From contig JASSKH010000001.1 in the NCBI GenBank assembly GCA_031763025.1, positions 7,187,024-7,251,023 of the forward strand: 64,000 nucleotides of DNA, read 5' to 3'. The translations under genes were made by a program, and so were the position numbers. The notes beneath the pieces were generated by a model. That model had not been told where the DNA came from. It worked only from the letters and a program-made list of their open reading frames with translations, and made no database searches. Positions 1-59,317 of the stretch are shown here, one piece after another (position 1 is the first letter of the stretch; each line of letters opens with the position of its first letter). The stretch comes from Macrocystis pyrifera. Taxonomy: Eukaryota; Sar; Phaeophyceae; Laminariales; Laminariaceae.

Positions 1-1796
1 CCGCCGGTGATGACGCCGGCGCCACCGGAGATGCCGCCGACGCCGGGGGTGATGTCACCGTCATCCCCACCGGGGGCCGAGAACCCTCAGATCGAGGACG
101 ACGAGGGTCCCCCGGACAACGAGCTTCTCCAACAGGGGCGGACGCGCGCGAGGACGAGGGCGTACCACCAGGCGTCTACTGGTACATCGCAGCCAGCTGA
201 CCACGCGCTTTTCAACCAGCGCCCGCCCAACCAACCCGCCCCTGCTCTGCCAACATGTGACGCGGGACAACTCTCGGAACCCGCTACCTACCAGGAGGCG
301 ATGCTCTCGCAATACCATGCGAACTGGTCCCATGCAATGGAGACGGAGATTGCCGGACTCGAGGGAGCTGGGACTTTCGGGGATGCTTAGCAGCAAAAGG
401 GAGGGAATGTGGTATCGGCCAAATGGGTGTTCACTTGGAAGGCAGATGAGCATGGTAAGGTAGTGAAGGCGAAAGCGCGACTAGTGGCGAGAGGATTTAG
501 CCAACGCCCCGGAGTTGATTACTATGAGACTTTTGCCCCCACCCCCGCCGCGTCATGTATCCGTATGATGGCTGCGATAGCCTGCGAGTTACAGTTAGAT
601 TTATGCCATTTCGATGTACAACAAGCGTTTGTCAAGGCCGAACTACAGGACTCGTTTTGATGCGAATGCCACAGGGCTGTGGTGATCTGAGCGGCAAATT
701 AATGCGCTTGAATCGTAGCCTATACGGCTTGAAACAGGCGTCGAGATCCTGGCATAGACACCTGGTCACCCGCCTGAAGAGTCTTAGTTTTGAACAGAGC
801 CTCGCAGATCCGTGTGTTTTTCGATTAATCGAGGCGGGGTCTGTTTCCATCATTGCTGTGGTTCACGTCGACGACATTTTTGCGGTAGGCCGTAAGGAGA
901 GATGTGACCGTTTTTGCGAGGATCTGAACCGCGTAGTCCCCATTAATAACCTTGGTGAGCTGCGATGGTATGCCGGTTGCCACTATTCCAGAGACAAGGT
1001 CGCGGGTTTACTGACAATTTCGCAAAAATCTTTCGCGGAGAAGACGGTCAAGCAATTTGGCGTGACCACTGGTAGGAACACCCCACTTTCCCCTGATCTT
1101 TTCCTGGAGGTGTTTGACGAGGAGGAGCCCACTGGTGACTGGCCGTATCGTGAACTAGTAGGCAGTTTGCTGTGGCTTTCTAACCAGACGAGACCTGATA
1201 TCTCAAATGCCGTAAGGGCGGTCGCGAGGTATATGCATGCCCCCAAACTCAAACACTGGTTGGCTGCGAGAGGGATTTTGGAGTATCTGAAGGTGACGAG
1301 TAGCTACGGTATTACTTTCCAGAGGGGCAGTGGATTAGAGTTGGTGGTTTATGCAGACGAAGCCTATGCCCCCCGAGACACTGTCTCGGGTGCAGCCGTG
1401 ATGTGTGGGGGTGCGGCCATTCAATGGATTTCTAGGACGCAGAAGACTTCCACACTCTCCACGAGTGAAGCAGAGTACGTTGCGATGGCAGAGGGTTTCA
1501 AGGAGGCTCTTTTTCTAAGGTCAGTGTGGCGTTTCCTGTTGCCTGATTTTGGGGATCCGTGCATCCAGGTTTTTGAGGACAACAAGGGTGCGATCCAAAT
1601 AGCGGTCAACCCTGTGACGAACTCTAACTCGAAGCACATAGATGTCCGCCACCACTTCCTGCGAGAACTTGTCGAAAAGGGAGAGTTTGAAATCACGCAT
1701 GTGAGGTCGGAATACGAACATGCGGAATTCTTGACGAAACCCCTTCCGAAAGACGCTTTCCGTTTCCACAGGAACTTCATCATGAACATGAGTTAA
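1..1796 (+). pseudogene. Ty1/copia retrotransposon pol, reverse transcriptase and RNase H part, decayed
   Basis: The 3' half of a copia-type polyprotein, entering from the left edge of the window. A Pro/Asp-rich linker (about bases 7-290) is followed by the RVT_2 reverse transcriptase, recognisable from the W-x-x-AM-x-x-E-I-x-x-L start, AKWVFTWK, KARLVARGFSQ, YETFAP, FDVQQAF, LNRSLYGLKQASR and the catalytic VHVDDI box. RNase H follows (VVYADEAYA, STSEAEYVA, EDNKGAI, KHIDVRHHF) and ends at the TAA at 1794-1796. Two lesions are visible: an in-frame TAG at 388-390 between the GTF and AKWVF motifs, and loss of one base near 650-656, after which the frame moves and reading continues as LMRMPQG. 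Gag and integrase would lie upstream of the window. The enzyme would copy element RNA into cDNA in cytoplasmic particles, but this copy cannot be translated whole. Family assignment is secure; inactivity rests on the two lesions. Confidence 0.93.
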
Positions 1797-2146
1797 TTTG
1801 TTTGTTTGTTTGTTTTGTTTTGTTTTTGAGTCAATTTTTATGTCTGACGAGGAGATTTATTTTTGGTCGTGTGATTGATCCCTATTTGATGATCCTCAAA
1901 ATTAGGATAATTTAGCACTAAGTCATTTGTGGTAAAATACCAGTACATCTAAATTACGGGTATTTCTATTCAAGTGATTTACGTGTAGATTAATGGTTGA
2001 TGACATGATAGTTGATAGCTGAGTGCGTCATTCTGGAATTCTGTTTTTTTTGTAGTATATGATACTGGTACGTACATGTACGGCCGCAGCAAGAGGCGGC
2101 AGTACGGAGTGTTTTGTGCGTATGTGATCGATAACAATCTGGCGTA

Positions 2147-2230
2147 CTCCGTCCCGGCATTGTAGCGATGCGAGGGCCCACAGTCATGATAGAAGAGTGG
2201 CCATGCATGACATCGAGTACCGAATCCCCT
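2147..2230 (-). repeat. Copy of the ATCATGCATGGCC module
   Basis: Read on the minus strand this segment gives TACTCGATGTCATGCATGG, then a CATGACTGTGGGCCCTCGC stretch, then CTACAATGCCGGGACGGAG. The same order of blocks occurs on the plus strand at 39403-39480, beside the G-rich tract. This is a diverged dispersed repeat; its class is unknown. Confidence 0.5.
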
Positions 2231-2250
2231 TCCGCTCCCCCAGCTGTTTG

Positions 2251-2414
2251 CATGGCCAAGTACGGGCACAAGGGGGACCTTACAGTGTTACACTATGCCC
2301 GTACTGGGTTTCTCAAGTTTAGGGATTTCCTGCATGGCCAAGTACGGGCACAAGGGGGACCACACAGTGTTACACTATACCCGTACAGGGTTTCTCAAGT
2401 TTATGGATTTCCTG
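2251..2414 (+). repeat. Tandem duplication, two 82-bp units
   Basis: Units 2251-2332 and 2333-2414 both run from CATGGCCAAGTACGGGCAC to GATTTCCTG with only a handful of substitutions. Each contains AGGGGGACC followed by CAGTGTTACACTA. The duplication lies in the putative 3' LTR region of the copia element and may have duplicated its polypurine tract and LTR start. Confidence 0.85.
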
Positions 2415-4623
2415 AGTTGAGGAATCGATCGTGATTCATGAGTGATGCTTTTTATCCCGTTCCGTTGGGGCTGGAAGACTGCTGTAGCAGGAAAGCTGAA
2501 ATATTTGGAACTACTGTACAACATAATTATTAATACATACGTACGTAACGCGGAATTGAAATCTGTAGTATACTAAGTCGACCGCACTAAACTGGGGCGT
2601 TATTTCAGAGACGAAATTCTGGGGTTTTGTTGCCATTTGACTGGATTTAGTGTGTCCCCTGTAGAGAGGCTATATCGGATTGGTGTTTGATTGAGATGGA
2701 GAGCCTAAACAAAAAAAGGGGGACTTACAGTACTATATAAATGATGCAAGGATTCGATTGATTGTTTTCTGAGATTTTGAGGAGTTGCTTTGTGGGCTTT
2801 TCTGGGCTTGGCGGGCTTGATCTTTCTGTACAGTCGAGATTTGAGGAGTTGATTTCTGTTTTTTTCTCCGATTTATTATTTTTCGGGTTTTGAGCAGCTG
2901 TTCTTGTGGTACTATTTTCTGAGATATGAAGATCAAGTTTCTTTCTTTGTCAGATTTGAGACTTTGATATTTTTATTTGTGATATTCTGATTTGAGGCAT
3001 TGGTGGTCTTGACATATACTTATCTTTGAGTACAATACCGTGGATTTGGATTTTAGGTGATCGTGGTCTATCATCATGGCATGGTACTTTATCATGAGCG
3101 ATGTTTGGTTATCCCATTCACCAAGCAGCCAAGCAGAGAGCAGAGGGGCTGTTCGGAGTGCTCACGTACTTGGTGTATGGATTTATGTGTAACGGTATTT
3201 GGGAGTTCCACACAGGAAATATGCGTGTTTCTGTGTGGAACGGTCAGCGGGTTGGGACGTATCTTATCCGCGGCTTTCTCTACTTCTTCTTCTTGTTCTA
3301 CTTCTTGTTGTGTGTGTACTTCATGTTCTCCCCCTTTCTTCCTTGTCTTGTGTATTCTAAGCGATACTATATATATACCCTGGAGGGGCTTCTACGAACT
3401 GACTCAGGCTTGGCCTATCATATCACTGAGTGCATCGAACAAATAGTAAAATACCCGAGGGTCGTCTGTAGTTCGTTGAAAATAACAAGGTCGAGGGGCC
3501 TTTCACCCAGTCAGCATGCCTTTCTTCAGCATACTACACGGCCACACAGTTGAACGGGACCCATCCATTGCATAATGCGGGCGTAAACAAATACCGTGGA
3601 GACATTGAACAACGTAATGTGTGTACTAAATCGCACAAGAGGTGTCGGCAACGTATCAATTCAGGACTATTAATGGTGCTCTATTTTGTTCAACGTCTCC
3701 ACAAGTCTTTTTCTACGCCCGCGTTAAGCAAGGGGCAGGTCCCAGCCACGTGTGCTTGGGTAGTCAAAATCTTACCCCAGCACCCGAACATCCATGTAAC
3801 CATCTCAGAGACGGTCTGGTTGAGGAAATCCTCGAGAATGTTCGGGCTGGCGAGTGGTTAATTGCGGCCGCGTCTCGATGGTGCAAGTTAAAGAAATACC
3901 ACCTTGACCTTGTGTGGCTGCTGCTGCTATATGTAAAGGTCCCTCCTGCCACTCGCGAAGCTAGGACCCTTTTGCAAAGGGTTAGCTGCCCTGAACCCTA
4001 CCAGGTACTGTAGATCGTTGGACCGACGTAGACCTATAATACTATATTTTACTTCCTCTCGAATTTGGTCCATGTCACTAAGACCTAAGTTCAGCTTCAT
4101 GGACAAGCGGATAAAACGAGAAAACGGGGCTTACTTCCCAACAGCGATCCGCATCGTGTCCCCGAATTGCGAAAATACTTGCAAGGATACGTATGAAATG
4201 ATTGAGTATCTTCGTTTAGCCCGTGCATTGTTCACCAAGTTTTTTTCGTTGATTCGAGAGATCGAGGAGCGAGGGAGACAACAGAGATCGCTCGTACTGC
4301 GTGTGGGGCTCTATTTGTGATCGTGTGAGTGTGCTTTGAAAAAAACAGACGCAAACAGAAACCGAAGCAGAGCACGAGCAGGAGTATATCATCCTAAAGT
4401 TGGAAATTGATTTTTCTTACGGCTCCCGCAGACCAAACTCTGAGCACAGCGTCACATATCAATAATTATTCCCAGCGTTCAGTAAACACCGCTGTGAGTA
4501 CTTCCGTCGCACACATTACATGTACGTAAGCGAGGGGAGGCAACACCACCGAGAGCGACACAAAACAGTTTTTTTTTTTTTTTCGTTATTTTTCAGTCAA
4601 ATAAATGAGGGATGGAAACTTCC

Positions 4624-6521
4624 ACACCTCGGATAACGTAACACTTAACGTTTTATGCTAATGTTAGGCGTCAGCGAAAAAAACACGTAACATTACGTTA
4701 CTAAGTTAACTGTTTTCTGGATTTTGTGATAACATAGTGTTAGTGTGTTATGATATTGGCGGGCGATCGCGCAACATTATGTTAGAGTGTTACCTTGATC
4801 TCGTACTGACCGCAGTATATGTGTTACGGTGTTAGGGTATGCAGCCCATAGCGAGTAACACTATGTTAGCGTGTTAGCGGAATTCCTGGTGGCTATCGTA
4901 ACACACGTTGAAGGGATAGCGTACATGGCCAATTAAACGTTAACATTATGTTACCGTGATAGCGACATCAGCCCGTAGCGAGTAACGTCATGTTAGTGTG
5001 TCAGCGGGATTCTTCTTGCTACCGTAACGCCCATTCGACGGATAACGTACACGGCCAAATAAACGCGTACATAACACTATGTTAGTTAATGCGTTAGTGA
5101 AATTCCTAGGGGCTATCGTAACAGACGCTAGAGGGATGACGTATATGGTCAATTCAACGTTAACATTATGATACCGTATCACCCGCAGCAGCAGTCTGTT
5201 TCAAGCGAGCTATGTGAGGGTATTACGGAAGTCTTGCTACCATAACAACACAACATACGTCAAACGGATAATAACGTATATGATCGATAAAACACTATTA
5301 ATAGCATTATGTTGATGTTGATAACTCGTATGCAATGTATGTAGTGACACAAGTTAGTAGAAAACGTACACCCCCAATCTAACATCAACAATACGTTACT
5401 ACCGTGTTAACTCGTACATGTGAGTGTGCATATTATGTTATAGATGGATAACGTAATGTGTTATAGATGGATAACGTACTGGCGGGGTTTCCACAAAAAA
5501 TGAGGCATTTTTTGCGGGGATCCCTCCTAAATACCCTCTGTTTTCGGGTTTTAAAATGTGGAGGCGTTTTTTCCCCAGGGACTCTTTACCATCCTCCCCC
5601 CCCCCGGGGATATTTTTGTAGGTATCCCCTACTGAGATGTCGGTGAAATTGGATAACACGGCTACGCTATGTGACTCCCACACACCCGCTTTACCGCTAA
5701 CGCAGGTAACGCATGTTAGATCTCGGAAAGATTCAAAGGGCAACGTAGTAGCATTACGTTAGAACGACTTCGGCCCCAACGGTAACTCAGAACTCAGAAA
5801 CATAAAGTTAGATCCGGATTGGTTTTTATGGTAACACGGTAACGGAATGTTACCATCAGATCTTTACTGACGGTAACACCGTATCACAATGTTACAGAGA
5901 CTTTCGCATTTGGGCCAAGATCCTAACATAATGTTACGTATGGGCCGGCTAAGACTATAACGTATCTAACGTACGTTAAGTGTTACGTTATCCGACCCTA
6001 AGGCCATCAGATGGGGGATCCAGATAACGAACTGTTGGTAGTGCTGGCCATTGCGTTATGCTACGTTAGTGTGTTATCTGCATCACAATGTTATGTGTTA
6101 GTAGTGCTGGCGAACATGGTAACGTTATGTTAGGGTGTTACGTATAACACTCCTCCTAAGGGTAACATAATGTAAGTGTGTTAGGTCTAACGCTGCATCG
6201 ACAACAACATTGTGTTATCGTGTTAGTAAATATGAGGATATCGATCTGGGCATGTTAGAGTGATAACGTATGTGTTTGGTTAAAGCCTAACACTGTGTTA
6301 CGGTGTTAGTTCAAGGACTGATCACGGTATAACAGAATGTTACTGTACCAGAGCTGGACGAGACCGAGCAGCAACATAACGCTAAGGCGCGTGGGTTTCC
6401 AGTCAACACTGTGTTATTGCGATACCGTGATCGCTTCTCCAGCGCTAACACGATGCTAGTACGTTACCACGTTCCTGTGTTAGGCTCCATAACGTAGATA
6501 AGTGTTATTATCCGAGGTGTA
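4624..6521 (+). mobile_element. Palindrome-rich non-autonomous DNA transposon, copy 1 (Mutator-like candidate)
   Basis: A 1.9-kb element bounded by ACACCTCGGATAA at the left and its inverse TTATCCGAGGTGT at the right. It is flanked by GAAACTTCC (4615-4623) and CAAACTTCA (6522-6530), which match at seven of nine positions and read as a decayed 9-bp target duplication. The interior is filled with short palindromes of the TAACATTATGTTA / TAACACTATGTTA type, often followed by a second GTTAGTGTGTTA-like half, roughly every 80-100 bp. A central block of about 260 bp (5480-5740) lacks them. No transposase is encoded. Nine-base target duplications are typical of the Mutator superfamily; that assignment is an inference. 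The second copy lies inverted at 9941-11859. Confidence 0.8.
5438..5743 (-). other. Open frame conserved between both palindrome-rich elements, copy 1
   Basis: A 101-codon open frame without an ATG start. Its first half (LTCVTCVSGKAGVWESHSVA, then a DTYKNIPGG block) matches the frame at 10723-11049 in the other copy, after which the two proteins diverge through indels. It occupies the central block without palindromes. It may be a coding remnant or merely conserved non-coding sequence; no family is recognised. Confidence 0.25.
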
Positions 6522-8895
6522 CAAACTTCAATGAATGGGTATGAAAAGAAGGAACAGGAAATCCCTATGGTACGTATTGACAATACGGACGTTGTTGTTA
6601 TTGTTGTCGTTCTCTCATTAACTCGCCACCAACCAACTTGTCCGCAGTCACAGGACAGGTTCCAATAACTCTGGAGTGGAAGAATAACTCAAGAAGATGT
6701 ACAAACAAACATAGTGTACGTCGTAGCTGAAGCACATCGTACGCCGTACTCTGGAAAGTGGGCTTTCTGGCGATTAACCAATATGTCGTTCCTGCTCGGC
6801 TCCCCGTCGCTTCAATACTCCCTGAACCCGGCGCGCGTGAGCGTCGGTGCCAAGCGAACATCTCGGTCACATTCCGGCTACAGTGCGCTCTTTCGCCCTG
6901 CGTCGCCGTCGGCCCGACGTTGCGACGCCCCTTGTTCGGCGGCGCTGACCTTGTGCTATGGTGAGAAGTGCGTCCGTCCTGGTGTGTGTACGTTCCTCAA
7001 GCGGGATAATTCGACAAGCCGATGCTTCTTACTCCTCCCAAGCGTCTCTCATGACTTGTAACCACCAGCGTCTCATCAAGCCAGTCGAACGACTGCTGTT
7101 TCTGTTTCGTCCATGACTCCCCACAGAACAAAAAACATTCCCACCATCGCAAACGCTGAGCAACGTTTTCGGTCCCAGACACACATTTCCTATGCACAAC
7201 AACACAGACAAGCCCTTCTTACACAGAAGCCGACTCAACTTCGCTGACCCGTTCCACAATAGCATGGCAGGTGCTAACCTTTCGCCACCGAAGCGCTTCC
7301 GCCGAACCTACCTGCAACCCCCACGGGAGATGCTTGCCTTATTCCCGATCGGCAGCGATTGACAAGGTGCTCACACAACATTTCAACCGAATACCGCTGG
7401 GATACTCTACAACATTGTTTTGGCGACCCCCCACAATCCACAGAGTCTACAGAGCAATCAGACCCCTGTGCGAGGAAACACTAGCCAGTCTTACGGATCT
7501 CAAACCCGGACTCCAGCTACTCAGGCTCCAGACACGAAAATGTCAGACAACCAGAGTCAAGGCCAACATATTAATTCCATCGCCAAACAACTAATACTCG
7601 TGAGTGACTCAGCCAGTGGAGCCATGCACAGTAGTGCTCCTATCGCCCTGCGTCGTCTTCCCCTCCACATCTCTTCCAGACTCAATCTCCCTGGAGTTCG
7701 CCATGTTGAAGAAGCTTGGGCCCTTGGACCACGGTATCCCAGGGTCGCTACGGCCGAGACTGGCTCTCACCTCTACGGACTTGAGTTCGATGGGGAGTCT
7801 GGAGTGTGTGCCCAGTTAATTCATCAGGCCATCAGATTCCCTCCAGGTTTCAGATCCCAATACCGGGCGAGCAACGTGGTTGGTTAACGAGGAACCAAGC
7901 GCGTTTGAGGGCGATATTTGTGTACAACAGGTAGACACGAGACCAGTGGACATGGTGGTTCGAATTTTCTACCTTACTTTGAGGGTGATTCGGCTAAACA
8001 CCACGTCGTTGGCCACTTCCACGGGCACACGATAGCGTTCCGGTCCCTGAAACCTATCCTCTAGCAACCTCTAGTATCTCAGCATGGAGCGTGGCCCATC
8101 CCTGCCCTCACAATGGACCCTCCACGCAACACTGGTCACGGCAGTCACTACACTTCGAAGTATTAAAAGCTGACCCCCTTCCTGCTGCAACACCTACTGG
8201 TACACTCGAGCGCTTGGTTGACAAAACATTGATTGTTGCCTTTGTATTCCTATGATACGACGTATGGAAACGAAAGAGAAATACAGCGAAATAAAGAGAG
8301 AGAAACAGGGAGAAAGCGGGGTGAAACCGAGCAAGTCAGCCAGAATCTTCATCACTTGTCTGTTTGTCTCCTGTCGGCAACTGTCCGCATCGCTTTACAA
8401 CTGGTCGTCCATATCGCATATGATTTTTTTTCGAGAAAAACTGCGTAGGTCCGGAGATACTAGACGGTGGCCTCAACACCACCCCCAAGATCTCCGCTTC
8501 ATCATATTTTAATGGTATTTTTTTTAGTGTAGACGGGAAGCCTAACAATATTTTGTTAGGAAGAAATCTTTATTTCCATTTAATTAGTTAGTTAGCCGGC
8601 GTTTCCATCTCTTTATATCATGCTTCATCAACGAATAGTGAGGGCATGCCCTACCTCTATTCAATTTTGTGGGACCAAACGGAACGGAACGACTGACGGT
8701 GTTTGTTAGTTCCATTCCTAAATAAAAAATCGTGTTTGGGTCCAGGCAGAATCCTGGGCCTGGCCGGCCAAGTAAGTACGAAGGATAGCATTTTTTATAT
8801 GTCACTACACAACACAGCGGGTTGGTCCGCAAGTGGTGTCCACCTCCGTCTTCGATGGTGTCCATCTACATCAAGCGATACTTTATTGAGTAGGT

Positions 8896-9188
8896 TTAGC
8901 AATCTGGGAGAAGGGATCTTTAGGGGTGTTTTTGACTTAAAAATTGCGTAGCGCGCGTCTGCACTTCGGAATCGTCGTCTGTAATTCAGAAATTTCCTGG
9001 TTCGATGCAAATGCGACGCAGCCGCGTTTATGGCCAGTTTTGGCCCGTTTTGGCTGCGGTTTGGGGTCAGGGTTAGGGTTAGGGTCAGGGGTTGGGTTAG
9101 GTCTTCGCCCGTACCTTGATCCCAACAGGGACCAAAATACCTTAACAGCCTACCAACCTAAAGATCCCTTCTCCTAGATTGCTAGGGG
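8896..9188. repeat. Inverted-repeat pair enclosing a telomere-like tract
   Basis: The ~32-bp arm at 8896-8927 (core GAGAAGGGATCTTTAGG) recurs inverted at 9157-9188 (core CCTAAAGATCCCTTCTC). Between them, at 9061-9102, is a degenerate TTAGGG/TCAGGG run. The arrangement looks like a ~290-bp foldback element, or a telomere-like fragment captured between inverted arms. Confidence 0.6.
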
Positions 9189-9626
9189 ACCTCACTTTAT
9201 TTGTGCCCGTCCGGTCCTCCTGTACAAGAAAAAGGGGTCCAGCACCTGTCCTTCCTCTTTCTACTTAGGCTAGGTAATTTTCTCGGGCTGCATAGAATAT
9301 ATTCGCTATGCAATCAGCACCAATAAAAATTGGGAATAAATTTCCACGGTTACTGCCCTCGATGAAATGCATTCGAGCAACTGTTCTCAGTTTGCTTACT
9401 TTTTTTTGTGAAGTCGCAGTTGGAGTTGGTGAGAGTGACGAGAGAGACCAGTTGGCACCGGCACAGACGGCACCCCGGTAGGCGGGGTTTGGCTCAGACT
9501 GAACGTCTACGTGCTCGCTATCGGGACTATACTTGTGGTCGTACTGGGCGGGGATACGGGATATTCGTGGGGGTTCGTAAAGGACATTCGACATGCTAGA
9601 AACATTTCTGGTTCGTGTTGTTGGTA

Positions 9627-9736
9627 CCACGGGGGACCATGGTAAATAGGACCAAATATTGTTAGTAAAAATAGGTAAATATATAGGTTTTTACGTATAC
9701 CATAGGTCCTATTAACTACAGTATGTACCCCCGTAA
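9627..9736 (-). mobile_element. TA-flanked MITE, copy 1
   Basis: Begins CCACGGGGGACC and ends CCCCCGTAA, flanked by TA at 9625-9626 and 9737-9738. The core has GGACCAAATATTGTTAGT, then TATATAGGTTTTTACG, then GGTCCTATTAACTA. Terminal inverted repeats of ~29 bp and TA targets suit a Tc1/mariner-type miniature element. Strand records the orientation relative to the copy at 63758. Confidence 0.9.
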
Positions 9737-9940
9737 TAGTGATGGACAAGATTCTCTTTCAAAGCCTACTACTGACTATTATACTACTAGAAGAAGAGTG
9801 GAATAATAATGAACGAACGTGGCAGATAAACGGCGGCAGCGACCGAGCTCCTAACTGCATGACGCTACTGCGCTGGCGGTTGTTGGACTGCCATGGATGT
9901 GTTGTCGTTCTCAGCCTAGTCATTTACAGTATACTAGTGC

Positions 9941-11859
9941 ACACCTCGGATAACGTAACACTCGGATAACACTTATCTACGTTATGGGGCCCAACACAGG
10001 AACGTGGTAACGTACTAACATAGTGTTAGCACTAGAGGAGCGATCACGGTAACGCAGTAACACAGTGTTAACTGGAAACCCACGAACGTGTACGACCCTT
10101 AACGTTATGTTGCTGCTCGGTCTCGTCCAGCTCTGGTACAGTAACATTATGTTACGCCGTGATCAGTCCTTGAACTAACACCGTAACACAGTGTTAGGCT
10201 TTGACCAAACACGTACGTTATCACTCTAACATTCCCAGATCGATACCCGCATGTTTACTAACACGATAACACAATGTTATTGTCGATGCAGCGTTAGACC
10301 TAACACACTTACATTATGTTACCCTTAGGAGGAGTGATATACGTAACACCCTAACATAACGTTACCATGTTCGCCAGCACTACTAACACATAACATTGTG
10401 TTACAGATAACACACTAACGTAACATATCGCAATGACCAGCACTACCAGCACTGCGTTATCTGGGCCCCCCATCTGATTGCCTTAGGGTCGGATAACGTA
10501 ACGCTTAACCTACGTTAGATACGTTACAGTCTTAGCCGGCCCATGCGTAACATTATGTTAGGATGTTAGACTAAATGCGGAAGTCCCTGTAACATTATGT
10601 TACGTTGTTACCGTCAGTAAAGATCTGATGGTAACATTCCGTTACCGTGTTACCACAAAAACCAATCCGCGTCTAACTTTACGTTACTGAGTTACCGTTG
10701 GGGCCGAAGTCGTTCTAACGTAATGTTACTACGTTACTCCTTTGGCTCTTCCCGAGATCTAACATGTGTTACTTGTGTTAGTGGTAAACCGGGCGTGTGG
10801 GAGTCACATAGCGTAGCCGTGTTATTCAATTTCGCCGACATCCCAGTAGGGGATACCTACAAAAATATCCCCGGGGGGGAGGATAGCATGGCATCCCCGG
10901 TAAAAAAAAAAACGCCTCTATATTTAATAAAAACAAAACAGGGGATATTTATGAGGGATCCCCTCAAAAAGCGCCTCATTTGTTTTTGTGGAAACCCCGC
11001 CAGTACGTTATCCATCTATAACACATTACGTTATCCATCTATAACGTAATCTGCACACTCACATGTACGAGTTAACACGGTAGTAACGTATTGTTGATGT
11101 TAGATTGGGGGTGTACGTTATCTACTAACTTGTGTCACTACATACATTGCATACGAGTTGACAGCATTAACATAATGCTATTAATAGTGTTTATCGATCA
11201 TATACGTACGTTATCCGTTTGACGTATGTTGTGTTGTTATGGTAGCAAGACTTCCGTAATACCCTCACATAACGTCGCTCGAAACGGACTGCTGCTGCGG
11301 CTGATACAGTCACATAATGTTAACGTTGTATTGACCATGCACGTCATCTCTCTAACGTCTGTTACGATAGCCCCTAGGAATTTCACTAACACACTAACAT
11401 AGTGTTATGTACGCGTTTATTTGGCCGTGTACGTTATCCGTCGAAAGGGTGTTAGGGTAGCACGAAGAATCCCGCTGACACACTAACATAACGTTACTCG
11501 CTACGGGCTGATGCCGCTAACACGGTAACATAATGTTAACGTTTAAGTGACCATGTACGTTATCCCTTTAACGTGCGTTACGGCAACCACCAGGAATTCC
11601 GCTAACACGCTAACATAGTGTTATACTCGTTATGGGATGCATACCCTAACACCGTAACACATTTACTGCGGTCAGTACGAGATCAAGGTAACACTCTAAC
11701 ATAATGTTACGCGATCGCCCGCCAATATCATAACACACTAACACTATGTTATCACAAAATCCAGAAAGTAGTTAACGTAGTAACGTAATGTTACGTGTTT
11801 TTTTCCGCTGACGCCTAACATCAACATAAAACGTTGAGTGTTGCGCTATCCGAGGTGTG
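9941..11859 (-). mobile_element. Palindrome-rich non-autonomous DNA transposon, copy 2 (inverted)
   Basis: Same family as 4624-6521 but in the opposite orientation: its right end (CTATCCGAGGTGT) corresponds to the left end of copy 1, and the internal blocks follow in reverse complement along the whole length. It is flanked by a perfect 9-bp duplication, TACTAGTGC, at 9932-9940 and 11860-11868. Its own target duplication shows that it inserted independently and did not arise by inversion of copy 1. It carries the same dense TAACATWATGTTA palindromes and the same central block. Together the copies form 1.9-kb inverted arms around 3.4 kb of spacer. Confidence 0.83.
10723..11049 (+). other. Open frame conserved between both palindrome-rich elements, copy 2
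   Basis: A 108-codon frame with an ATG at 10723, sharing about 45 consecutive aligned residues with the frame at 5438-5743 (LTCVTCVSGKPGVWESHSVA, then DTYKNIPGG). Beyond that an A-run (about 10902-10912) shifts the frames apart. Protein status is uncertain and no family is recognised. Confidence 0.25.
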
Positions 11860-11868
11860 TACTAGTGC

Positions 11869-14800
11869 TAACGACAGATGTCCCGCTAGCTGGACCGGAA
11901 CAGGCGACAAGTGCTGCCAGCCGGCAGAGACCCCGGGCACGCAGCACACCAGGGACGACCGCGGGGGCACAGGAACGACATTTCGGTTTGAAATAAACAC
12001 AGCGCCACCAGCCGCAGCGCACGACATCAGCACGAGCCACGCACCAGTGCTGCTGTACATCAGCAGCATTGAACGGGGATCAATTTCATCGAGATAGTCG
12101 GTTTCGCAGTGCAAAAAACACTGCGCTTCACAGCGCAAAAACCTTGTACTTGCGCAACTACTCCAACTTCCACAGCGGCACGAGCACCTGCACGAGTACT
12201 ACCGGTATAGCTTTGGGATCGATTTATGCCTGCCGTCGGTTGTATGCCGGTTGTCCAATGAAAAACATGTCGGTTGTTCCAAGAAACACGCACGACGGCT
12301 ACTATTACGGGGATCCATAGTTAATGGGACCAAATTTGGTTAGGAAAAATAGTTAAATATATAGGTTTTAACGTGTACCATAGGTCCTATTAACTATGGA
12401 CCCCCGTAATACAAAGTAAACGACAGATAAACAAGAGAACCAATCAGCACCCATTAATCTGGCAAATACATTTTCATTCGATTCGTTCCAAGAATGCACT
12501 TTGGGCGGGGTTTAGACACGCCTTCCTTGAGGATTAGCGAGGACGGTACCAGAGCTCCCATATTGTAGTCGCCAACCACGAACTCCGTGAGTTTTTTAGT
12601 CCGATTTTCAAAACTCTAAAGGCTCCTGTAGAAGGGCAAACTATTGTCGAACCAATCCCTTGCACACATTTTTACGAGGACACCTGTCTGCAGAAAACAA
12701 GCTCCATGGGGAGCATTGTTCCAAGTCTGCAATCGGAACTTGAGGGTCTGTTTTGCGTCTGGCCAGAAACCTTGATCGCACAATTTCCTCGTCTCATTCT
12801 TTTCCCCCCGCTTGATATTCAGCAGAATAACATCCACTAGATTTCCGCAATTGTGCATGGACGTCCGCACGCATGTTGTGCAGCAGCTAGCTGACGATGG
12901 CTGCCCCAGGCCAAAAGTTACGGTATTTCGAAGCAGACGCTGTCTTACGTATGCATGTTACTAGATTGGCTTTGGGACCGAAGCGCAAAAAGGAAGTCTG
13001 ACACTTCCTGGAACTGCTAAACTGATAAAATAGTATCACAGGTACCAGGTATGTATACAAGCGTATCCCACCTATCAGTACCCGTGCCAGCAGCAGTACC
13101 AGGTACCAGTCAGTCAATCTGGCAGCAGTTTTACTCATAGCAGCATACACAGTTACGAGGTAAAATGACCCATCTCTCCTGCGATGGTTCAACAAGATCA
13201 ACCTTCAAATCGGGCACTAGATGGGAGGTGGACACACATAAACAAAGAGCGACATTCAACTTCCAAGTACAGGTATACTTTACTTTACGCACCCCCACCC
13301 TCTTTTTCTCTCACGAAACTGTCTTGGGCTGCTCGAAACAGACAACAAAAAGTGTGGATGTTGTGGACGACGACGCTCCTTGCCCTCGCTTGAGTGACAG
13401 CAGCAGCAGTGTGTGGCAATCCTCTTACTACGCAATATTGACTCTAATCTTGACTCTGAGGAATACGCCACACACCAGGGATTATTCTACGGCCAAGGTC
13501 CGCGAACACCACACACTAGCCGGACGATTATCCTCCATCTCCCCACACGAAGCTCGACGCTTCAGGTTGTCAGTGGAAGTGGAAGGACTCCTATCCCAAT
13601 ACGTACATGCCTAAAGTCACCCACTGCAAACTTGTCTAACTCTGCGCCCTTCCTCTTCACGGAATTGCTTATCTCGCGATAGAGCCCTCAGATATAATTT
13701 TATTTGTGTTGCGTTTACCCCAGGTTACATATAATAAACAGCCTGGCGCTCCGCTCCGCCAGCGGGTTCTAGCAGCCCCTCTCCCAACGGTCCCCCTATG
13801 TCACTCAAAAGAAAGCATCCATCCGATAACATGTATGTATCGAAAAACATCTACAGTACCATCCACCCCATGACATGTACGTAAGATTACTGGGAAAAAC
13901 AGCAACAGGCTGTACACCACTCTCACCTCAAAAATTTCAGTGTGCGTAATATTGTAATGCTACGGGGGCCACACAATACGTCTAGCCCAGGGGGCGGAAG
14001 CCCACCTAGCGTGGCAGGAGGCATCTCACTATCAATAGGTACCTCAAATTTCCCCCCAAAACACCCGTGTTTTCCACCGATCGGAAAAAATAAACCCGAC
14101 GCGCATGTATGCATTAAGCCAAGCGGCCCAAACAAACGACGGAACCACAATCAGCCGTGACCGTTCTCCAGCAGTTGTAACCGTTGCCTTGACAAAAAAT
14201 ACAGCTCCACCACCTTTCGCGCGCAGTCAAAGGCCATCGCTGCAGGCGCCATGTAATTCGGACATGTGAGCAACCAACCCCTCAGGTCCGAGCGTACCGT
14301 TTCCTCGTCAAGCCCACTCCCCTCCCCCCCGGTACCAAAACTAGCTATTAATAGATACACTGCACCGTCCACAAATGCTCATGTACCAAAAAAAGCTAAC
14401 AGCTACCCTACAACACCGTCCATTGATGCTGTTGGCTGGAAATTACAGAGCTCTAGGAAAAATTTCTCGAAAAAAAACAATAAAAATCGATCGTCGGGTG
14501 AAATAGAGTTCGCCCGAAAAAGGCGAAGGCCCGAAAAACAAATCCTGAGCCTACATGCCCAACTCACACGGCATGAAGACAAAAGACACGAAGCACTCCC
14601 GTAGGTATCGGCGCTGCCTCTGAGCTCTATCTGCCAATCCACACAACATGTGCCCAACAAAAAAAAACTCATATAGAGCTTGGTGACGGTTGCCGCGTCA
14701 TACTACTGGCAAGTTACATAGACAAACAATACGCACGCACTGGCGCGCTTAGGCGTCGTCTATGTTGACAACAGGCGCTCACAGCAGAACGCCGGCCTTC

Positions 14801-18000: not shown

Positions 18001-21000
18001 CAGCCCTTCTTGCGATCACCCCGGCGGACCCGATCCCCGCCCGGCCCTTCGCCATGCGGTATGTCAGCATCAACAAAGCCATCAGCGCCAGAGGGCCAAG
18101 AGTTGCCGCCAACAGCCTCAAGTAAAAGTTGATCGACGGAAGGATGCACGATGCCGAAAAGATGCTCCCCAGGTCGAGGTTCACGACGCTGATCCACGAC
18201 AGGAACATCGAGTAGGAAGCCGGGAACTGGACCCCCGTGATACCCGAGAAAAGAGCGAGGATCTGCCACACTACCACCAGGATCTTGAGTTTGTTCAGCG
18301 GCAGCAATGCCATCAAGCGTTTGATCTTGTCGCCAAGCCCACAACACTTTGGCTTCCCGCCACCACCAACCTCCACCCCCACTCCCGTATTTAATCGTGC
18401 TTCGCTCAATTCCGTACCCGTATCAGCTCCAGCGACGACAGATGGCCGAGGAGGTCGACTCGCAAGCCTCCCCGCGTCGCTAGCACCAGGCCTACCTGCC
18501 GGGTCGAACGCATCGGCCCCGACCCCGACAACAGCGCCGTGAGGTCGGGGAAACAACCGCTCATCATCTGTATCGGAATAGTCGGTCGGGAACACTCTGC
18601 CACGACGGACACCGCTGCCGTCGTCTTCATTTTTGGCCTCCGCCGCTATATCATACGCAGGTGCAACGAGGGCATCCATGGAGACCATCTCGCTCTCGGA
18701 TCGTCCTCTCAGGCTGGGCCCCGGTCCAGGGGGCAAGGTGCCGGACGCTTTGCTACCGAAGGAGAATTTTCGAGCGAAAGACTCCTTGACGATGTCGATG
18801 GCGTCAAGCCCTCCGATGAGGAACACCACTGCGAGGGCAAGCAGCACGAGCACCACCACGGCGAAAAGGGAGCCCATGGCGACGAGCAGGTGGGCCTTGG
18901 TGTTGTTGCAGACGTGGCACGCGTTGCCGACACCTCTTCCGTACCCTTCCCTGCAAACGGCGCAATCTGACAGACGAGCAAAACAGATATCGAGAGATCG
19001 TGGACGATGAGAGGTGCATCACGGTGTATACGTGACACAACATTTATAGCACGAAGGTTACCTCCAGGGAAGCATGCGAACAACATACCAGCACCGGGTA
19101 CGATATAAGCGGTTCAACTACGAGATACTGCACGACACGCAAATCTGTTCCTCCAGCAATCCTCCACCAATAACAGACGGTTTCATACAGGAGGATGAAC
19201 GCATCCGGGTAAGACAATGCTGACCGAGCTCGCCATACCGTTCGGCTGCACGTTAACTCACATGGACCCCTGTACCCTTCCTCGCAGTAGTCGTCTGAAC
19301 TAGATACCACCGTCGCGCCTACGCACGCCTCGTCGTGCAAGCATGCCCGAACATTTACCGATTCTTGGCTCGGCCGCCAGTATCCCTCTCGGATAGGTAG
19401 CGAGGCTAACGTCGCTCCCGGGACATCGCAATTCACTCCGTCCGCCTCATCGATCGAAGCACACGCCTTGCACAAGAAACCCTTGTCGCCGTCGCCATCT
19501 GTGGGGTCGGCGTATTCATAAGCCTGGCAAAGGTAGAACTTCGAGTTCACAATTCGGTGGGCGTCGCTGGTTGCGTCCGAGCTGACGCTTCCGGAGGTCA
19601 CGTTGAAGCTACTCATCAGTTCCCCCCCCACGTCCTGTGTCGAAGGGGTACCCGTAACCGTCACAGTGATGGAGCCCCCGGGAGGCAAGACTCCGCTGGA
19701 CGGAACTACGTCCAAGGTAAGGTCTTTACTCTCGAAGTGCAGGTTCCAGATAGCGTTCGTCGTCCCGGTAGCCGCCGATGAGACCACGAATTCATACCGC
19801 ACCGGAGCGGGGTCGAACGTCACCGCATCTGGGCTAGACACGCGGCTGAGGGATAGCTCGCCACCACCGTCCAGACATTCACCGTCCTCGAGGCACTCGC
19901 ACAGAACCCCGAGCGTGCTGTTCACGCAGTCCCCAGCCCCGCACGCGTTGGAATCGTTGCAGTCCAAAGCCCGGTCCACAAGCGTGAGCGAGTTGTTCAG
20001 CGTGTCGGCGGCGTTTTCGAAGGTGAGGCTACTGACGACGGCGTTGCGGATCTCTGCGTCCGAGTTGGGCGAGGTGACCGACATAGTTGCGGAGCTCCCG
20101 CCAAAGTTACAGCTGTCCAGAACAAGCGACCCGGCGGCCGAGTTCTTGTGGTAAACAACGGTATCTCCGCGCCAGCCTTCGAAAATGCACTTTTTCGCGT
20201 TAAGAGTGCTGTCACTGTCCAACTGTATCGCGCGATTGGAGGAATCTTCCTGAAGACCGACGCCCGACTTGAACATCACCTCTTTGGCAACGACGGAGCT
20301 CGCGGCTACATACACAACGCTGCCGCCAGAGGCCAGGTTGGCGTCGACGTCGTGGCTTTCTAAATTAGCGCCGCGCACGTTCGTCAGGTAGATGGCCGCT
20401 CCTTGGGGAGACTCGTTGGCGATCAAATTGCAGCTAGAGTTCACCCACTTGGCTTCTCGGCCATAGATGCCCCCGCCCTGGTCGCCGGCGTAGTTGCCAG
20501 AGATGTTGGCCCCCTTGCAATTGAGGCTGGCCTTTTCCTCGAGAAAAATGAAGCCGCCATAGAACTTTGCGGTATTGTTGTAAAATTCGCCGCCAGTGAT
20601 GGTCACGACCGTTGGGTCTAACCCCCCAGAGGTAGTCCCCCAGGCCACGATCGCGCCCCCCAGTTCCAGCGCGCTGTTGTTCCTGAAAACCCCTCCCTCG
20701 ATAGTCACCCTCGAACCTCCGAGATTGAAACTATCTCCCGAGCAATACACCTGATAAAAAGGGAACGGTGAAAGCGGGCAGGGCCAAGGCAGCAGCCACA
20801 TAACGGCAATCGACAGTCAGACACTGGTTGAAACGTTACGATTTGCCAAGCACCGCTCAATGAATCTCCATCGAAGCCGAGCTGACGCTCCCTTCTTGCA
20901 CCCTGAACCCACGGGAAACACATTTAAGACCCATTTCCCGCTAAGCCATCCCAACACGAGCAGCCCTTGCAATTTTCAGTCCCGGCCTAGAGTACGAGAC

Positions 21001-26400: not shown

Positions 26401-29400
26401 CTCATGTATCATACATTTTTTTCGTTTTTTTTAATCCTCGGGTGGATTGGTAAAATAATAAAAGAACAACCCTTCTAGAACCGCAGTCCTGGTTCGGAGA
26501 CAAACTACTTGGAATTCGACTGCTTTGTCCCCAAAAGGGGACTGCAGTTCTCACAGAACTTCCACTCCACTAATCAGTAATATAACAGATAATACCTGTC
26601 GTGATACGCCTCGTATCATACGTTGGAATGGAATGATGGGGCGGGGGTTGTGGATGCGCGATTATGAGAATCAAACTGCAAATGCCTTCAAGACCAAAGA
26701 TCCTTTTTCACCTTTTCAGGTGCCACATCGTTCGAACCAGAACCAGAACGAACCAAAACAACATCGGAACAAACCACCAGGTGCCTACCTGACCGACGAC
26801 CTTGTGCGTGTGCCCTGTGGGCTGTGTGTGCGCACCATTGCGATTGGTATTATTTCCACCCAAGAACATCCAGCACAACCAGTGTTCTTTGCCGATTCTT
26901 CAATCCTACGAATAGAGATACATTCTTTTTTTTTTGCTCTTCTGTTTTTTAAATATACTGGTAAATCACTTTCACTTTCCAGCCTGAAGCCTGCGTCCCC
27001 GGTGACTTGGTGTAGGTGGTGCGCGAGCCGATCAAGATCAATTTTGTGGGTTCGAGTCTCACCGAGTGCATGCTCGTACTCGTACGTAGGGACTTTTTTT
27101 TGCTTCAAAAATGATCAGCGGAAAGCGCGAGAGCATGAGTCAGCTGTACATTCGATGAAAATCGACGAGCAGTGGGAATGCTGAAGCTTATGCGGGACAA
27201 AAAATAAAGGCATGTACCAGGGGGGAGAAGGGACGACACCTGAACCTGTAACCACGGCTTGTCCAGAAGATTACTTGGAATTTGATTATTAATAATACTG
27301 CTGCTCTAGTTTGTCCCCAAAACGGGACTGCAGTTCGAGTTATAAAGCAGAGCACACACAATATACAAATCCCATGTCATTGTGCTGGGTACGACGTACA
27401 AAGTCTACATATCATATCAAAGCGACCAAAATCGAAAGAAACATGTAAAAGAAGCTCGAGGCCGCCTGTACAATAAATGAGACATACATACATGCGTAAA
27501 TATAGGGACCGTTTTTTCATCAATATCAAAACTAAAACGATCTGTACATTTCCGGACAGAGTGAGTGAGTCGTACGAGGTGACGAGCAAGGCTCCGTCGC
27601 TATATGTGCGTACAAGTCAAGTATACATACCTGGTATATAGCGCTCAACTGCTCAAGTAAGGAATATTGGTGGAATATCTACTTAAGCAATCAAAACGTA
27701 CCCAAGGACTGAGGAATATTATACTATTTTTAATATGAATATATTCTTACCTGTGGTAGCAAACACAAAGTCACGGCATTCATTTTATTTCTTTCTCTTC
27801 CTTTCTCCCATTGATAAGCCTTACTGAAGGAGTCGTAGCGTGGGTGGATGACGAGCCTGCTTTGCTTGTTTCGTATTGTCTGACGCCGAGGGGCCGGGCA
27901 TAATTGACGAACGCAGGACGGAGGCGACAGACAGGGTAGCAAGGTACCAGGCGGACTAGCAGGGAGACCCTGGCTGCGCTCGTACTCGTACCATAAACTG
28001 CTGCCGCTACTTGAAGGATGCTTTGTGCGTTGGTTTGCCTGTTATTTTCTTTTGGTCCTTTGTCTTTACTCTGTTGACGACGTCTATTATTATTAGTAGT
28101 GGTGTTTTTCTTTTTTTTCCTTTTTTTCCCAGCTCGTTTTTTCAAGCGTCTGCCAGACCCCTGTGGGGGGGGCACAATGGTTTGTTTCTTATGTTCATTT
28201 CTTGTTTATTTTTCTCTTTTGAATTGTCTTTTCCTTGTTTTTGTTTTGTTTCGTTTTTTGCTCTTTGTTTCGTTTCGTTTCTCTAGGTCATGGAATGTGT
28301 ATGTCTCGTGCCTGTCGTATGCACTATGTCGACATGTTGACATGACATTGCATTACATACGTGGCAACGTAGTATCTCTGTGGCGTAGTTTTGTGACCAC
28401 AGAACTTGTATCTCTCTATATATGGGATTGAAGAATCGGCACGGACACTGGTTGTGCTGGATGTCGACGGGTAGAAATAACAGTTTGATGTGAAGAAAAC
28501 ACACAGAAATCCTCTTACTATTTTTTTTTTATAAGAAACTAAGAAAGCACTTACTATTTGTGATCTCCATCCAGCAGACAAAACACATTACGACGAACTG
28601 CTGTAATACAACTTCCGTATAGAGCAGTATCATCATCTGTCCACGACAAGCAACTCACCGCTCCACCATTGTAAAGGGCCTTGTTATCGACCAGCTGAGT
28701 ATCCGCCCCCAGCGTCATTGAAGAAGCGCCAATCGCCCCCCCGTAGCCCTTGACCATGTTCAAGGAAAAGTTGCACCTGTCAATCTTGATATCGGTGTCG
28801 TTGCCTCCAAACACAGCCCCGCCAGTGAACTGAGCGTAGTTACTCGTGAAGACCGAGTCGGTGATGTCGGCATCTGTGAACCAAAAAGCAGCGGCTCCGC
28901 CCCCATCGAGATCCTCCAACGGCACAACAGCAGTGAAGTCGAGGACATTCTCGAGGGAAGCATTGTTGGACACGAACTCGGCGTTGCGGATGGAGCACGA
29001 CGACCCCGAGTCGGTCCCCAGCCCTAGTCGCAACCCTCCGCAGTACAGCGCACCGCCTTCTACCGCCTTGTTGTTCTCGAACCTAGCCCCTTCTCTGACC
29101 ACTAAATTAGCATTCGTTGCGAGCACGGCGCCTCCGTTTAGGGTGGCGCTGTTGCCCAAGAATTCCCCCCCGACTATCGTGACGGTTCCACCATCTGCCC
29201 ACACCGCACCCCCGTCCCCGTCGGTGGCAGCGTTGCCGTCAAACACGCAACCATCCAGAGTCAAGTTGGCGCTGTCCGAGTAGATTGCGCCGCCATTGCT
29301 GGCAGCGCCTCCCGATAGCTTCAGATGTGTCAAGGTCAGGCTACCGCCTGGAGATACTTTAAACAGCTGGGTCTGAGAGCCGCCCTGGATTTCGGCCAGA

Positions 29401-29708
29401 GTGCCGTTTCCCGTTACGGACAGGGACGTGCCCGACGCAATTGCAATCGGAGTGTCAATCGTGACAGCAGCCCCAGTCCACTCGACCTGCAACACTCCAC
29501 GGTTGGCGCAGATTGCCTCGGCTCGGAGGGTGTCCACTCCTGACCCATCTTCTTCGACTCGAATTGGCGTGGTTATAGCTGCTGTTGAGCAAGTACTGCT
29601 GGTATTATTAGTTTGGGCCCAGGCTAGCGAGTTCAGACATGCTGCCCAGCCAACAACCAGTGCTGAAATCGCGGCCTTCGCGTAGCACCGGCGCGCTCGA
29701 GATGCCAT
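15099..29708 (-). CDS. Pmp-type beta-helix ectodomain fused to a TRP-like polytopic membrane domain (nine exons)
   Basis: Exons in transcript order: 29708-28659, 22440-22278, 21684-21530, 20750-19262, 18966-17957, 17574-17422, 17018-16751, 15955-15765 and 15590-15099. All introns are GT..AG, the phases agree throughout, and the sum is 1,657 codons including the stop. Residues 1-31 look like a signal peptide (hydrophobic run ending AWA|Q). Residues ~110-700 are right-handed beta-helix repeats with GGAI / GGAV and NN-type turns, as in chlamydial Pmp proteins; four of the exon joins fall at or beside such GGAxY/F motifs. An EGF-like Cys cluster lies at 720-748, then an Ig-like beta stretch and a Cys-rich segment (CAVCREGYGRG). 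A transmembrane helix is at ~983-1006, an acidic/Gly-rich loop follows, then the NKLKILVVVWQIL ... GVQFP ... SWISVVNLDLG block and further helices to ~1550, and a charged cytoplasmic tail. It is predicted to be a surface protein with a channel-like C-terminus; ligand and activity are unknown. An alternative start Met lies nine codons upstream (29735). Confidence 0.85.
16388..16497 (+). mobile_element. TA-flanked MITE, copy 3, inside an intron
   Basis: TTACGGGGGTAC ... GTCCTCCGTAA, flanked by TA at 16386-16387 and 16498-16499. It lies inside the 795-bp intron 15956-16750 of the beta-helix/TRP-like gene and does not touch the splice sites. Confidence 0.92.
20751..21529 (-). other. Intron 3 of the beta-helix/TRP-like gene, with a TGACGG-type repeat
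   Basis: A 779-bp intron: donor GTAAGTGGG read from 21529, acceptor TTTTTATCAG ending at 20751. Bases ~21205-21330 contain several TTGACGG / GACCCGTCAAG words and the string GACGGCTGTCCGTCAAG, which can fold. A related block occurs at 37685-37895. Confidence 0.7.
23412..23453. repeat. (ACT)n / (CTA)n microsatellite
   Basis: A perfect trinucleotide run of about 14 units, followed by shorter CTACTACTACTG remnants. Confidence 0.95.
26509..26552. repeat. TTTGTCCCCAAAAGGGGACTGCAG repeat, copy 1
   Basis: ACTTGGAATTCGACTG followed by TTTGTCCCCAAAAGGGGACT recurs at 27273-27334 (ACTTGGAATTTGAT ... TTTGTCCCCAAAACGGGACT) and in part near 56130-56152. The CCCCTTTTGGGG core is self-complementary. The two copies bracket the SINE at 26995-27272. 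Element class unknown. Confidence 0.5.
26868..26930 (-). repeat. Short LINE 3'-end fragment
   Basis: CATCCAGCACAACCAGTG and GATTCTTCAATCCTA match the minus-oriented LINE copy at 40310-40365. It is a diverged remnant of the LINE 3' end. Confidence 0.5.
26995..27272 (+). mobile_element. tRNA-derived SINE, copy 1
   Basis: Starts GTCCCCGGTGACTTGG, with an A-box-like TGACTTGGTGTAGGTGG and a B-box-like GGGTTCGAGTCTCACC about 50 bases later. The body contains AGCGGAAAGCGCGAGAGC, CGATGAAAATCGACGAGCAG and CACGGCTTGTCCAGAAGAT, as in the other three copies. The 3' tail seen in the others (GGCTGGAAAGTAAAAGTGAT) is missing, so this copy is 3'-truncated. It lies in intron 1 of the beta-helix/TRP-like gene. 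Confidence 0.8.
27785..28505 (+). mobile_element. 5'-truncated LINE copy (3' region only)
   Basis: Collinear with 60367-61085: GATGACGAGCCTGCTTTGCT, GACAGGGTAGCAAGGTACC, a T-rich stretch, then CTCTGTGGCGTAGTTTTGTG and GATGTCGACGGGTAGAAATA near the 3' end. It has no coding part. Copies sharing a 3' end with variable 5' starts are the hallmark of target-primed LINE insertion. It lies in intron 1 of the beta-helix/TRP-like gene. Confidence 0.7.
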
Positions 29709-29735
29709 CCCGCATACTCTCCTCCTCCTCTCCAT

Positions 29736-37895: not shown

Positions 37896-38426
37896 GACAT
37901 ACGTTCGCTTTCGACGATGATGTGTCCATCCTCAGGTTCCGATCCGACGAAACGGACGGTTCCCCACTACCATGGCCTCACTTGGTCACGGATCCCAAGC
38001 CGTTTGAGGGGACGGGAGAGATTGCGTGGAGAAGCGGCTGCTGGCCCTTTGGCTAACCTGCGTTCCTCCTGCTCTTGGGGCAGATAGATATGGGCGCGTG
38101 TCGTGTGTCCGCGTCGACTGACTGCGCCGCAGCAGAGGACCCCCCTCGCCCCCACATCTTGTACACACATACCCCTCAATGTTCGCCACACCCACCACAA
38201 CTGTGTGAAGAGGGTATGACTCCGAGAGGGTCTGTTGGCCGCGCCCGAAAGCAGGCGGTAGTTCCTGCCCCCTGGAGGGAGAGTCCTGTGCGGTACGCAT
38301 ATGACGTTTCTTAGCGAAGGCTCTTTCTGGTCTGCACCCCACTCTAGAGGGGCTCCGTCTCGCAAGGGATGCACGCGTGGTCAATGGTCAAATGGTTGAG
38401 GCAATCAACAAATGAGTACGTCCCCT

Positions 38427-39480
38427 TCCGGGTCTATGGTCATACGACTACGGGCATGCACAATATCGAGTACGCCCCCTCCCCCCCTCCCCTTCCTCGC
38501 CAGCGACTTGTCCAGTCCCGGCGGGCGTGTCGTCTCTGACAGCGGGTCCAGAAAAGCTGTCTGGGCTGCGTGAGGACCCCGGCTGACGAGCTTGCCCGAT
38601 TTTTGTTGAGAATCCTTGGAGTCAAGATTAGTAGTGACTGCGTCGTAAGCCGCCGACCTCTGGGGCCATTGAGGCGGTGTCCTGTTCTAATATTTCCCTT
38701 CATTGCCATAAGCCGTTTTTGTGGATAATTATAACGTGAAATCATTTTTTTTTGCTTGTCATTATGTGTTTTTCCGGACTGCGCCCCCAGTCCAGCCAAG
38801 ACTCAGGGACGATGCCGGCCATTGCTCACTTTGGGGCCCCGTATGTGTCCCAAAACTCTGTCAGGATCGTTTCGAGGTGAGCGATACTCCTCGACCCGGG
38901 AACCCACTCCGCGGGGGCGGGGGGGGGGGGGGGGGGGGGGGGCGTGTACTCAATATCATGCATGGCCGTAGTCGTATGATCATGGACCGGGGGGCGAAGA
39001 AAGGGGGGGTGTCGAAGGGGGGGTGGGGTGGACGGAGAGAGAAGGGATAAAAGGGGAGGGGGGGGGGACGACGGGTGTGTGGAGAGAGAGAGGGGTGAAG
39101 GGGGATGGGGGGGGGGGGGGGAGTAGAGGGGGGCGGTGAGGAGGGGGTGGGGGGTGGAGGGGAGGGCAGGGAGAGAGGAAGAGGGGTGACGGATGGGGGG
39201 GCTCGAGGGGGGTGAGGGCGTGGAGGGGAGGAGGTGGTGATGAAAGGGGCGGGTGTAGAGGGGGGGGTGGGGTAGACGGCGGGGGGGGGGGGGGGGGAAG
39301 GAGGAAGGAAGGGAGGGGGGAGGGACAATGGGTGTGTATGGAGAAGAATGTGTGGAGAGAGAAGTGGGGGGGCGGGGGGCGGGGGGGGGGGGGGGGGGGG
39401 GGTATACTCATTATCATGCATGGCCGTAGTCGTGTGACCATAGACCCTCGCCTCCCTACAATGCCGGGACGGAGCGCGTC
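38427..39480. repeat. G-rich purine tract framed by ATCATGCATGGCCG modules
   Basis: From about 38913 to 39402 the plus strand is almost entirely G with some A and T and very little C, including several G runs longer than ten. A ~45-bp module (ACTCAATATCATGCATGGCC, then GTAGTCGTRTGAYCATRGACC) stands at 38947-38990 and 39403-39447, and an inverted copy at 38427-38470. The tract is expected to form G-quadruplexes or triplex DNA and is hard to assemble. The long Pro-rich minus-strand frames across it are composition artefacts. Confidence 0.7.
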
Positions 39481-59037: not shown

Positions 59038-59317
59038 GCCGACATACCGACTAAAGTTAGCTATTAGTATTAATAGTTGGCGACTACTATAGTTATTAGT
59101 CGTGGCATGCTGCCGATTCTCAGGCGTGGCCATCCACTACAGTAAGGATTCGACGGGAAGAAAAAAATAAACGCAGTACGTACGTAAAGAAAGATGAATC
59201 CTTTGAAGAATTGTCCAAGCTTCGCCAGCCGACAAACCGAGTAAAGTCGGCTATTAGTAGTCGGCCAACAGTTAATGATCGTGAAATGCTGCCTACTCAC
59301 AGCCATGGCCATCCACT
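59038..59317. repeat. Tandem duplication, two ~185-bp units, at the LINE start
   Basis: The block from CCGACATACCGACTAAAG to GTGGCCATCCACTAC (59038-59142) recurs as 59222-59317 (CCGACAAACCGAGTAAAG ... ATGGCCATCCACTAC). Between them lies ATTCGACGGGAAGAAAAAAA with a following AAAGAAAGAT block, which is repeated again, diverged, after the LINE at about 61104-61180. Confidence 0.6.

Follow-up and report, generated by a model that had tools for sequence, protein, structure and literature searches.

A non-autonomous transposon family of the kelp Macrocystis pyrifera carries a phased array of half-sites

Non-autonomous transposons usually retain just their ends and a little subterminal DNA, and we know of no described non-autonomous element that is built as a phased operator lattice. 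Plasmid iterons are direct repeats of a protein-binding site in helical phase; the kelp array described here differs from these in sitting on a transposon, and no replication gene was seen. Among mobile elements, close counterparts are the non-autonomous terminal inverted repeat (TIR) transposons with 8-bp target duplications (hAT-, KDZ/Zisupton- and P-like). The kelp element resembles them in its short TIRs, its precise duplications, the lack of any detected coding capacity and its near star-like family, but differs in that its body consists of phased half-sites. A further point of comparison is the VANDAL/VANC system of Arabidopsis, where, as described in PMC5735166, VANC21 binds a nine-base motif that is dense in non-coding VANDAL21, and the motif arrays expand by tandem repeat formation. 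The kelp element is alike in that non-coding transposon DNA is filled with one short motif and has grown in tandem. In contrast, its array is palindromic, helically phased and free of a methylation signature, and its partner protein is only putative.

The window, the whole 64,000-bp stretch of M. pyrifera DNA that was analysed, contains two 1.9-kb blocks arranged head-to-head in reverse complement; an alignment that takes in short stretches of flank matches at 1778 of 1952 bases, or 91%. The two blocks are independent insertions of a non-autonomous TIR transposon (Table 1). A preliminary description had recognised both blocks and their shared end ACACCTCGGATAA, which is exact at 4624, 6508 and 9941 and has one mismatch at 11846. 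Its exact bounds did not hold: comparison of the ends over 30 genome copies shows that they are one base longer, giving CACACC...GGTGTG.

Table 1. Positions in the window of the two transposon copies, their target duplications and their internal parts
Feature	Position	Strand	Remarks
Left copy, non-autonomous transposon	4623..6521	+	1899 bp; defined by ends and genome copies
Right copy, same transposon, opposite orientation	9940..11859	-	1920 bp
Left-copy target duplication, left flank: GAAACTTC	4615..4622		
Left-copy target duplication, right flank: CAAACTTC	6522..6529		7/8 match with GAAACTTC
Right-copy target duplication, left flank: TACTAGTG	9932..9939		
Right-copy target duplication, right flank: TACTAGTG	11860..11867		8/8 match
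23-bp TIR CACACCTCGGATAACGTAACACT, left end of left copy	4623..4645	+	consensus ends
23-bp TIR, low-coordinate end of right copy	9940..9962	+	
Left copy, left-arm array of phased half-sites	4688..5484		limits approximate
Central segment without half-site array, left copy	5485..5640		about consensus 861-1010; window limits approximate
Left copy, right-arm array of phased half-sites	5641..6458		limits approximate
Internal inverted copy of left TIR core (TCGGATAACGTAACACTTAA), right arm of left copy	5976..5995	-	
Phased half-site array, right copy	10016..11793		20 cores with at most one mismatch; broken by central segment
Internal inverted copy of TIR core, right copy	10489..10508	+	one mismatch

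Each copy has a flanking repeat of its own, as had been reported, perfect for the right copy and with one mismatch for the left, but its length is 8 bp and not 9 bp. Across the 30 genome copies, the 8-bp register yields a perfect duplication in 15 and at most one mismatch in 18, compared with 6 perfect and 15 within one mismatch in the earlier 9-bp register. The 18 duplications share a weak palindromic consensus, RAAnnTTY. Twelve of the 30 copies are without a recognisable 8-bp duplication; a perfect 7-bp duplication is found in three of these (L005, L012 and L028), while L002 and L004, which are 99.4% identical to each other, adjoin another piece of the family. In eight further copies the duplication was perfect in four, matched at 7/8 in one and failed in three.

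Uninterrupted relatives exist for the insertion site of the right copy. With 40 of 194 candidates scored, a search with the joined flanks of this copy listed 40 matches, comprising its own two flanks and 38 others, and all of these 38 (79-85% identical) run across the junction. Three of the 38 were aligned; the element is present in none, and each lacks 5-6 bases in the region of the target, which is therefore incomplete in them. The host sequence itself (about 9800-9939 and 11868-11987) is a member of a dispersed repeat family, to which the 38 other copies among the matches listed belong. Together with the different duplication at each copy, the uninterrupted relatives bear out the earlier view that the two insertions are independent. 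We looked for ragged ends among the genome copies and, in relatives of the right copy's site, for a single rearrangement behind both blocks, and saw neither.

Several other features were observed in the window. A hairpin element with 29-nt arms at 12303-12411, of which part has an 88% relative at 9629-9718, is a separate MITE-like repeat. The stretch at 8897-9184 has a 28-nt inverted repeat (96%) around about 230 bp, including a GGGTTAGGG-like stretch at 9064-9101, and looks like another small TIR element. A Copia-type reverse transcriptase frame (RVT_2) occupies 555-1796, with an 82-bp tandem repeat beyond it at 2249-2414, and further tandem arrays lie at 51469-51656 (32-bp units) and 61800-62082 (66-bp units). 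On the minus strand, 19044-20801 and 28554-29897 hold frames resembling polymorphic outer-membrane proteins or beta-helices (Chlam_PMP, E 5.7e-12; Beta_helix below cut-off). The segment at 38001-40000, with a strong GC skew (0.304) and G-rich runs, is unlike the rest of the window.

The genome searched comprises 537,376,219 bases in 223 contigs. With 40 of 1501 candidates scored, the element gave at least 51 matches, at least 33 of them near full length including the query; the other 32 near-full-length copies listed are 87-91% identical to it. Its first 16 bases occur exactly at 764 genome places (389 + 375), and their reversed control at none. The 1 match to this end 16-mer in a viral collection and the 20 in a prokaryote collection are within chance, and the papers listed by literature searches on kelp miniature inverted-repeat elements and on the end sequence were unrelated. 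Copies across the genome, with precise ends and target duplications, support the earlier proposal of a mobile family. The 30 copies are 94.3-98.3% identical to their 1908-bp consensus (1.7-5.7% away), which contains the 23-bp TIR, and have a mean pairwise difference of 5.3%. The first 14 bases are exact at both ends in 18 of the copies, the other 12 having 1-3 mismatches in all. Most derived states (848 of 1116) occur in a single copy only, as in a burst from few sources, and the family is near star-like.

Some members depart from this picture. A 1.6-kb variant (L031, L039, L040, L044, L066-L069 and L084) has one target site, GAAGTTTG or one change from it, and common flanks where compared, with only part of one flank shared in L068 and only a few bases compared in L084. 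This variant appears to be one insertion carried round the genome inside another multi-copy repeat. Of 74 listed ends with atypical neighbouring sequence, some were read: L073, L078 and L079 proved to be copies of one larger duplication, and L072 an old relative with about 70-72% identity. L089 (G000:C190:13618280-13620550, positions 92-1923) is a diverged relative, about 72-74% identical, with both terminal 10-mers exact; it may be of old age, or may descend from a still living subfamily in which the lattice was dispensable.

The most distinctive property of the element lies in its interior. The consensus contains 54 TAAC and 69 GTTA tetramers, a total of 123 half-sites, against an expectation of about 7.5 each with equal base use (about 15 in total); the array is absent from its central 150 bp. 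The half-sites form a palindrome, TAACANNNTGTTA, of which the consensus has 24 cores with at most one mismatch. Core spacings fall within 1 of a multiple of 42 bp, which is about four DNA turns, in 17 of 23 cases, where 1.6 would be expected. The half-sites themselves have a period near 8.35 bp, or five slots per 42 bp, with a power of 26.0 compared with at most 9.6 in 200 random placements. Exactly one outer half-site accompanies 17 of the 24 cores at a fixed offset, on the right in 12 and on the left in 5 but never on both sides, and 7 cores have none; by chance, about 0.1 would be expected per side. The operator thus typically consists of three half-sites over 21 bp. Along the consensus its direction changes: it points right in the left arm, left at 1120-1288, and right once more between 1484 and the right end.

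In the whole window, 37 cores with at most one mismatch were found, every one inside the two copies (17 + 20), compared with 0.61 expected. Spacer columns mostly carry less than 0.4 bit, but the three core columns that played no part in picking the cores are conserved too, at 0.73, 1.05 and 1.35 bit. The TIR word GATAACGTA/TACGTTATC occurs at 11 places in the consensus, in both orientations and with both TIRs included.

Across the 30 copies, the half-sites are no better conserved than the rest of the element, differing at 522 of 19,597 motif bases (2.66%) compared with 1112 of 37,458 others (2.97%). Single copies behave alike, with 15.2% of half-site bases differing versus 16.4% of the rest in L032, 7.8 versus 8.2% in L039 and L044, 3.4 versus 3.4% in L007 and 6.5 versus 5.3% in L001. 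The diverged relatives also show no preferential retention: in L089, 119 of 497 half-site bases (23.9%) and 219 of 991 others (22.1%) have changed and 3 cores remain, while 7 cores remain both in L072 (24.7% of half-site bases changed versus 29.9% of the rest) and in L032 (36.5 versus 30.6%, from another alignment than the figures above and with inserts included). Decay of the half-sites would be normal in dead copies, whereas in living subfamilies it would count against a binding array.

No transposase was found in any copy examined. Neither window copy has a frame of 150 aa, in agreement with the preliminary description, and the longest stop-to-stop frames in the 30 copies span 60-142 aa. 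An autonomous partner with the same ends had been predicted to exist elsewhere; we sought one, and none was found among the 159 distinct end places listed of 764 (100 + 74, 15 in both). Among 100 listed places examined, the end pairs 2.5-40 kb apart were L031-L038 and L066. L031 (G000:C127:2848600-2854600) was rejected as an autonomous copy, as it holds a nested LINE at 614-4363 with an uninterrupted 1249-aa frame containing endonuclease and reverse transcriptase; by eye, a window frame at 59211-60254 resembles the tail of this kind of LINE. L032 and L035-L038 were also rejected, their inserts lying at different places and several being bounded by short duplications, and L033/L034 is a 10.8-kb copy that holds an insert. 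Pfam searches with seven frames from L031-L035 gave only LINE domains and one match below cut-off, and in L036-L038 and L066 no frame is appreciably longer than 100 aa.

We also searched the genome for transposases of known superfamilies. The earlier inference of a Mutator-type enzyme was drawn from 9-bp duplications, a premise that fails with duplications of 8 bp and the consensus RAAnnTTY. The 8 bp of the element compares with about 9 bp for Mutator, although the 8-11 bp range of MULE duplications includes 8. MULE transposases gave 94 genome matches (150 of 151 candidates scored), the nearest lying 29 kb from any listed end by eye, and none was found by eye inside any of the 159 of 764 listed ends. 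The Mutator assignment is unsupported. For hAT transposases there were at least 150 matches (150 of 317 candidates scored), five of which lie less than 25 kb from a listed end, by eye; again, none was found by eye inside any of the 159 of 764 listed ends. None of the five could be placed inside a copy: those on C202 and C219 are outside closed copies, that on C190 is outside a closed old copy, that on C134 is some 20 kb beyond an ordinary truncated copy ending at consensus 1765, and that on C132 is 7 kb beyond the closed copy L038. Of the 18 duplications of the kelp element, 17 have A at position 2 and 14 have T at position 7, opposite to the hAT consensus nTnnnnAn.

Our leading guess for the superfamily is KDZ (Kyakuja-Dileera-Zisupton), whose elements are described as abundant in the brown alga Ectocarpus, with 8 families (PMC12477816). 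Besides this presence in brown algae, the points of likeness are the 8-bp duplications, as made by Zisupton, and the CA..TG termini, as described for Kyakuja, which makes 7-bp duplications (PMC12730594). In contrast to KDZ elements, no KDZ gene is linked to the kelp ends, and the KDZ Pfam profile search gave no match, its controls being silent too. P elements likewise make 8-bp duplications (PMC7776569). The profile search for P-type transposases gave no match, with controls equally silent, and a literature search on P elements in brown algae listed no paper.

On balance, we lean modestly towards a non-autonomous cut-and-paste DNA transposon that carries a phased array of predicted sites at which its own transposition protein would bind. 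That the sites exist, are in phase and resemble the TIR is directly visible; that they bind the transposase or a companion protein is suggested by the inner part of the TIR, which is the same word, GATAACGTA. A transposase made elsewhere and supplied in trans would spread the element, and this enzyme, or a small DNA-binding partner encoded with it, may read the TAAC half-site in the TIR and in both arms. With units four turns apart, bound proteins would be aligned on one face of the DNA, which could favour cooperative loading of many molecules and might in turn give these copies an advantage in competing for scarce enzyme. In a more far-reaching version, which we consider quite improbable, the element would be a mobile nucleoprotein scaffold, about 1.7 of its 1.9 kb forming a polarised 21-bp operator lattice at four-turn spacing that a putative transposon-encoded protein coats over its full length, bringing the ends together or protecting the copy against the host.

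The array could instead be a degenerate 42-bp satellite, captured by an ordinary non-autonomous transposon or grown in it by slippage, and functionless, an alternative that we regard as unlikely but credible. The left arm contains higher-order duplications at a distance of about 216-220 bp, which would fit such an origin, as would half-sites that are conserved like the rest, both among copies and in diverged relatives. The lack of half-site conservation in the relatives made us slightly less confident in the binding array, slightly less inclined to the end-to-end coated scaffold and somewhat more open to the satellite. A decaying satellite, however, should lose half-sites and spacers equally, whereas most of the consensus units share their half-sites and spacers are near random, and the TIR has the same word. 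The phase, moreover, is kept while polarity switches between stretches.

It is also conceivable, if distinctly improbable, that the array of this same transposon recruits a different protein, for example a VANC-like anti-silencing or chromatin factor of the autonomous element. The arms of the kelp element have likewise grown in tandem, with internal duplications of 118 nt and 108 nt, but VANC motifs stand in a single orientation, whereas the kelp half-sites are palindromic with a helical period. VANC furthermore counteracts DNA methylation, of which the kelp family shows no sign, CpG positions being no more variable (2.39%) than other C or G (2.74% and 2.66%). That one inverted segmental duplication produced both blocks is hardly credible. 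The copies do lie head-to-head within 7.3 kb, and of the derived bases found in 2-10 copies they have 16 in common; only one other pair within the 30 copies shares more. This hints at local hopping or gene conversion. Yet their target duplications differ, the homology ends at the TIRs, the right copy has uninterrupted sites, and many isolated copies exist elsewhere.

Under the favoured reading of a transposon that carries binding sites for its own transposition protein, a family that has spread widely with a 1.7-kb phased operator array would offer a direct test of whether extra in-register transposase sites improve a DNA element as a substrate. The family is also a well-delimited addition to what is known of mobile DNA in brown algae, a subject that has received little study.
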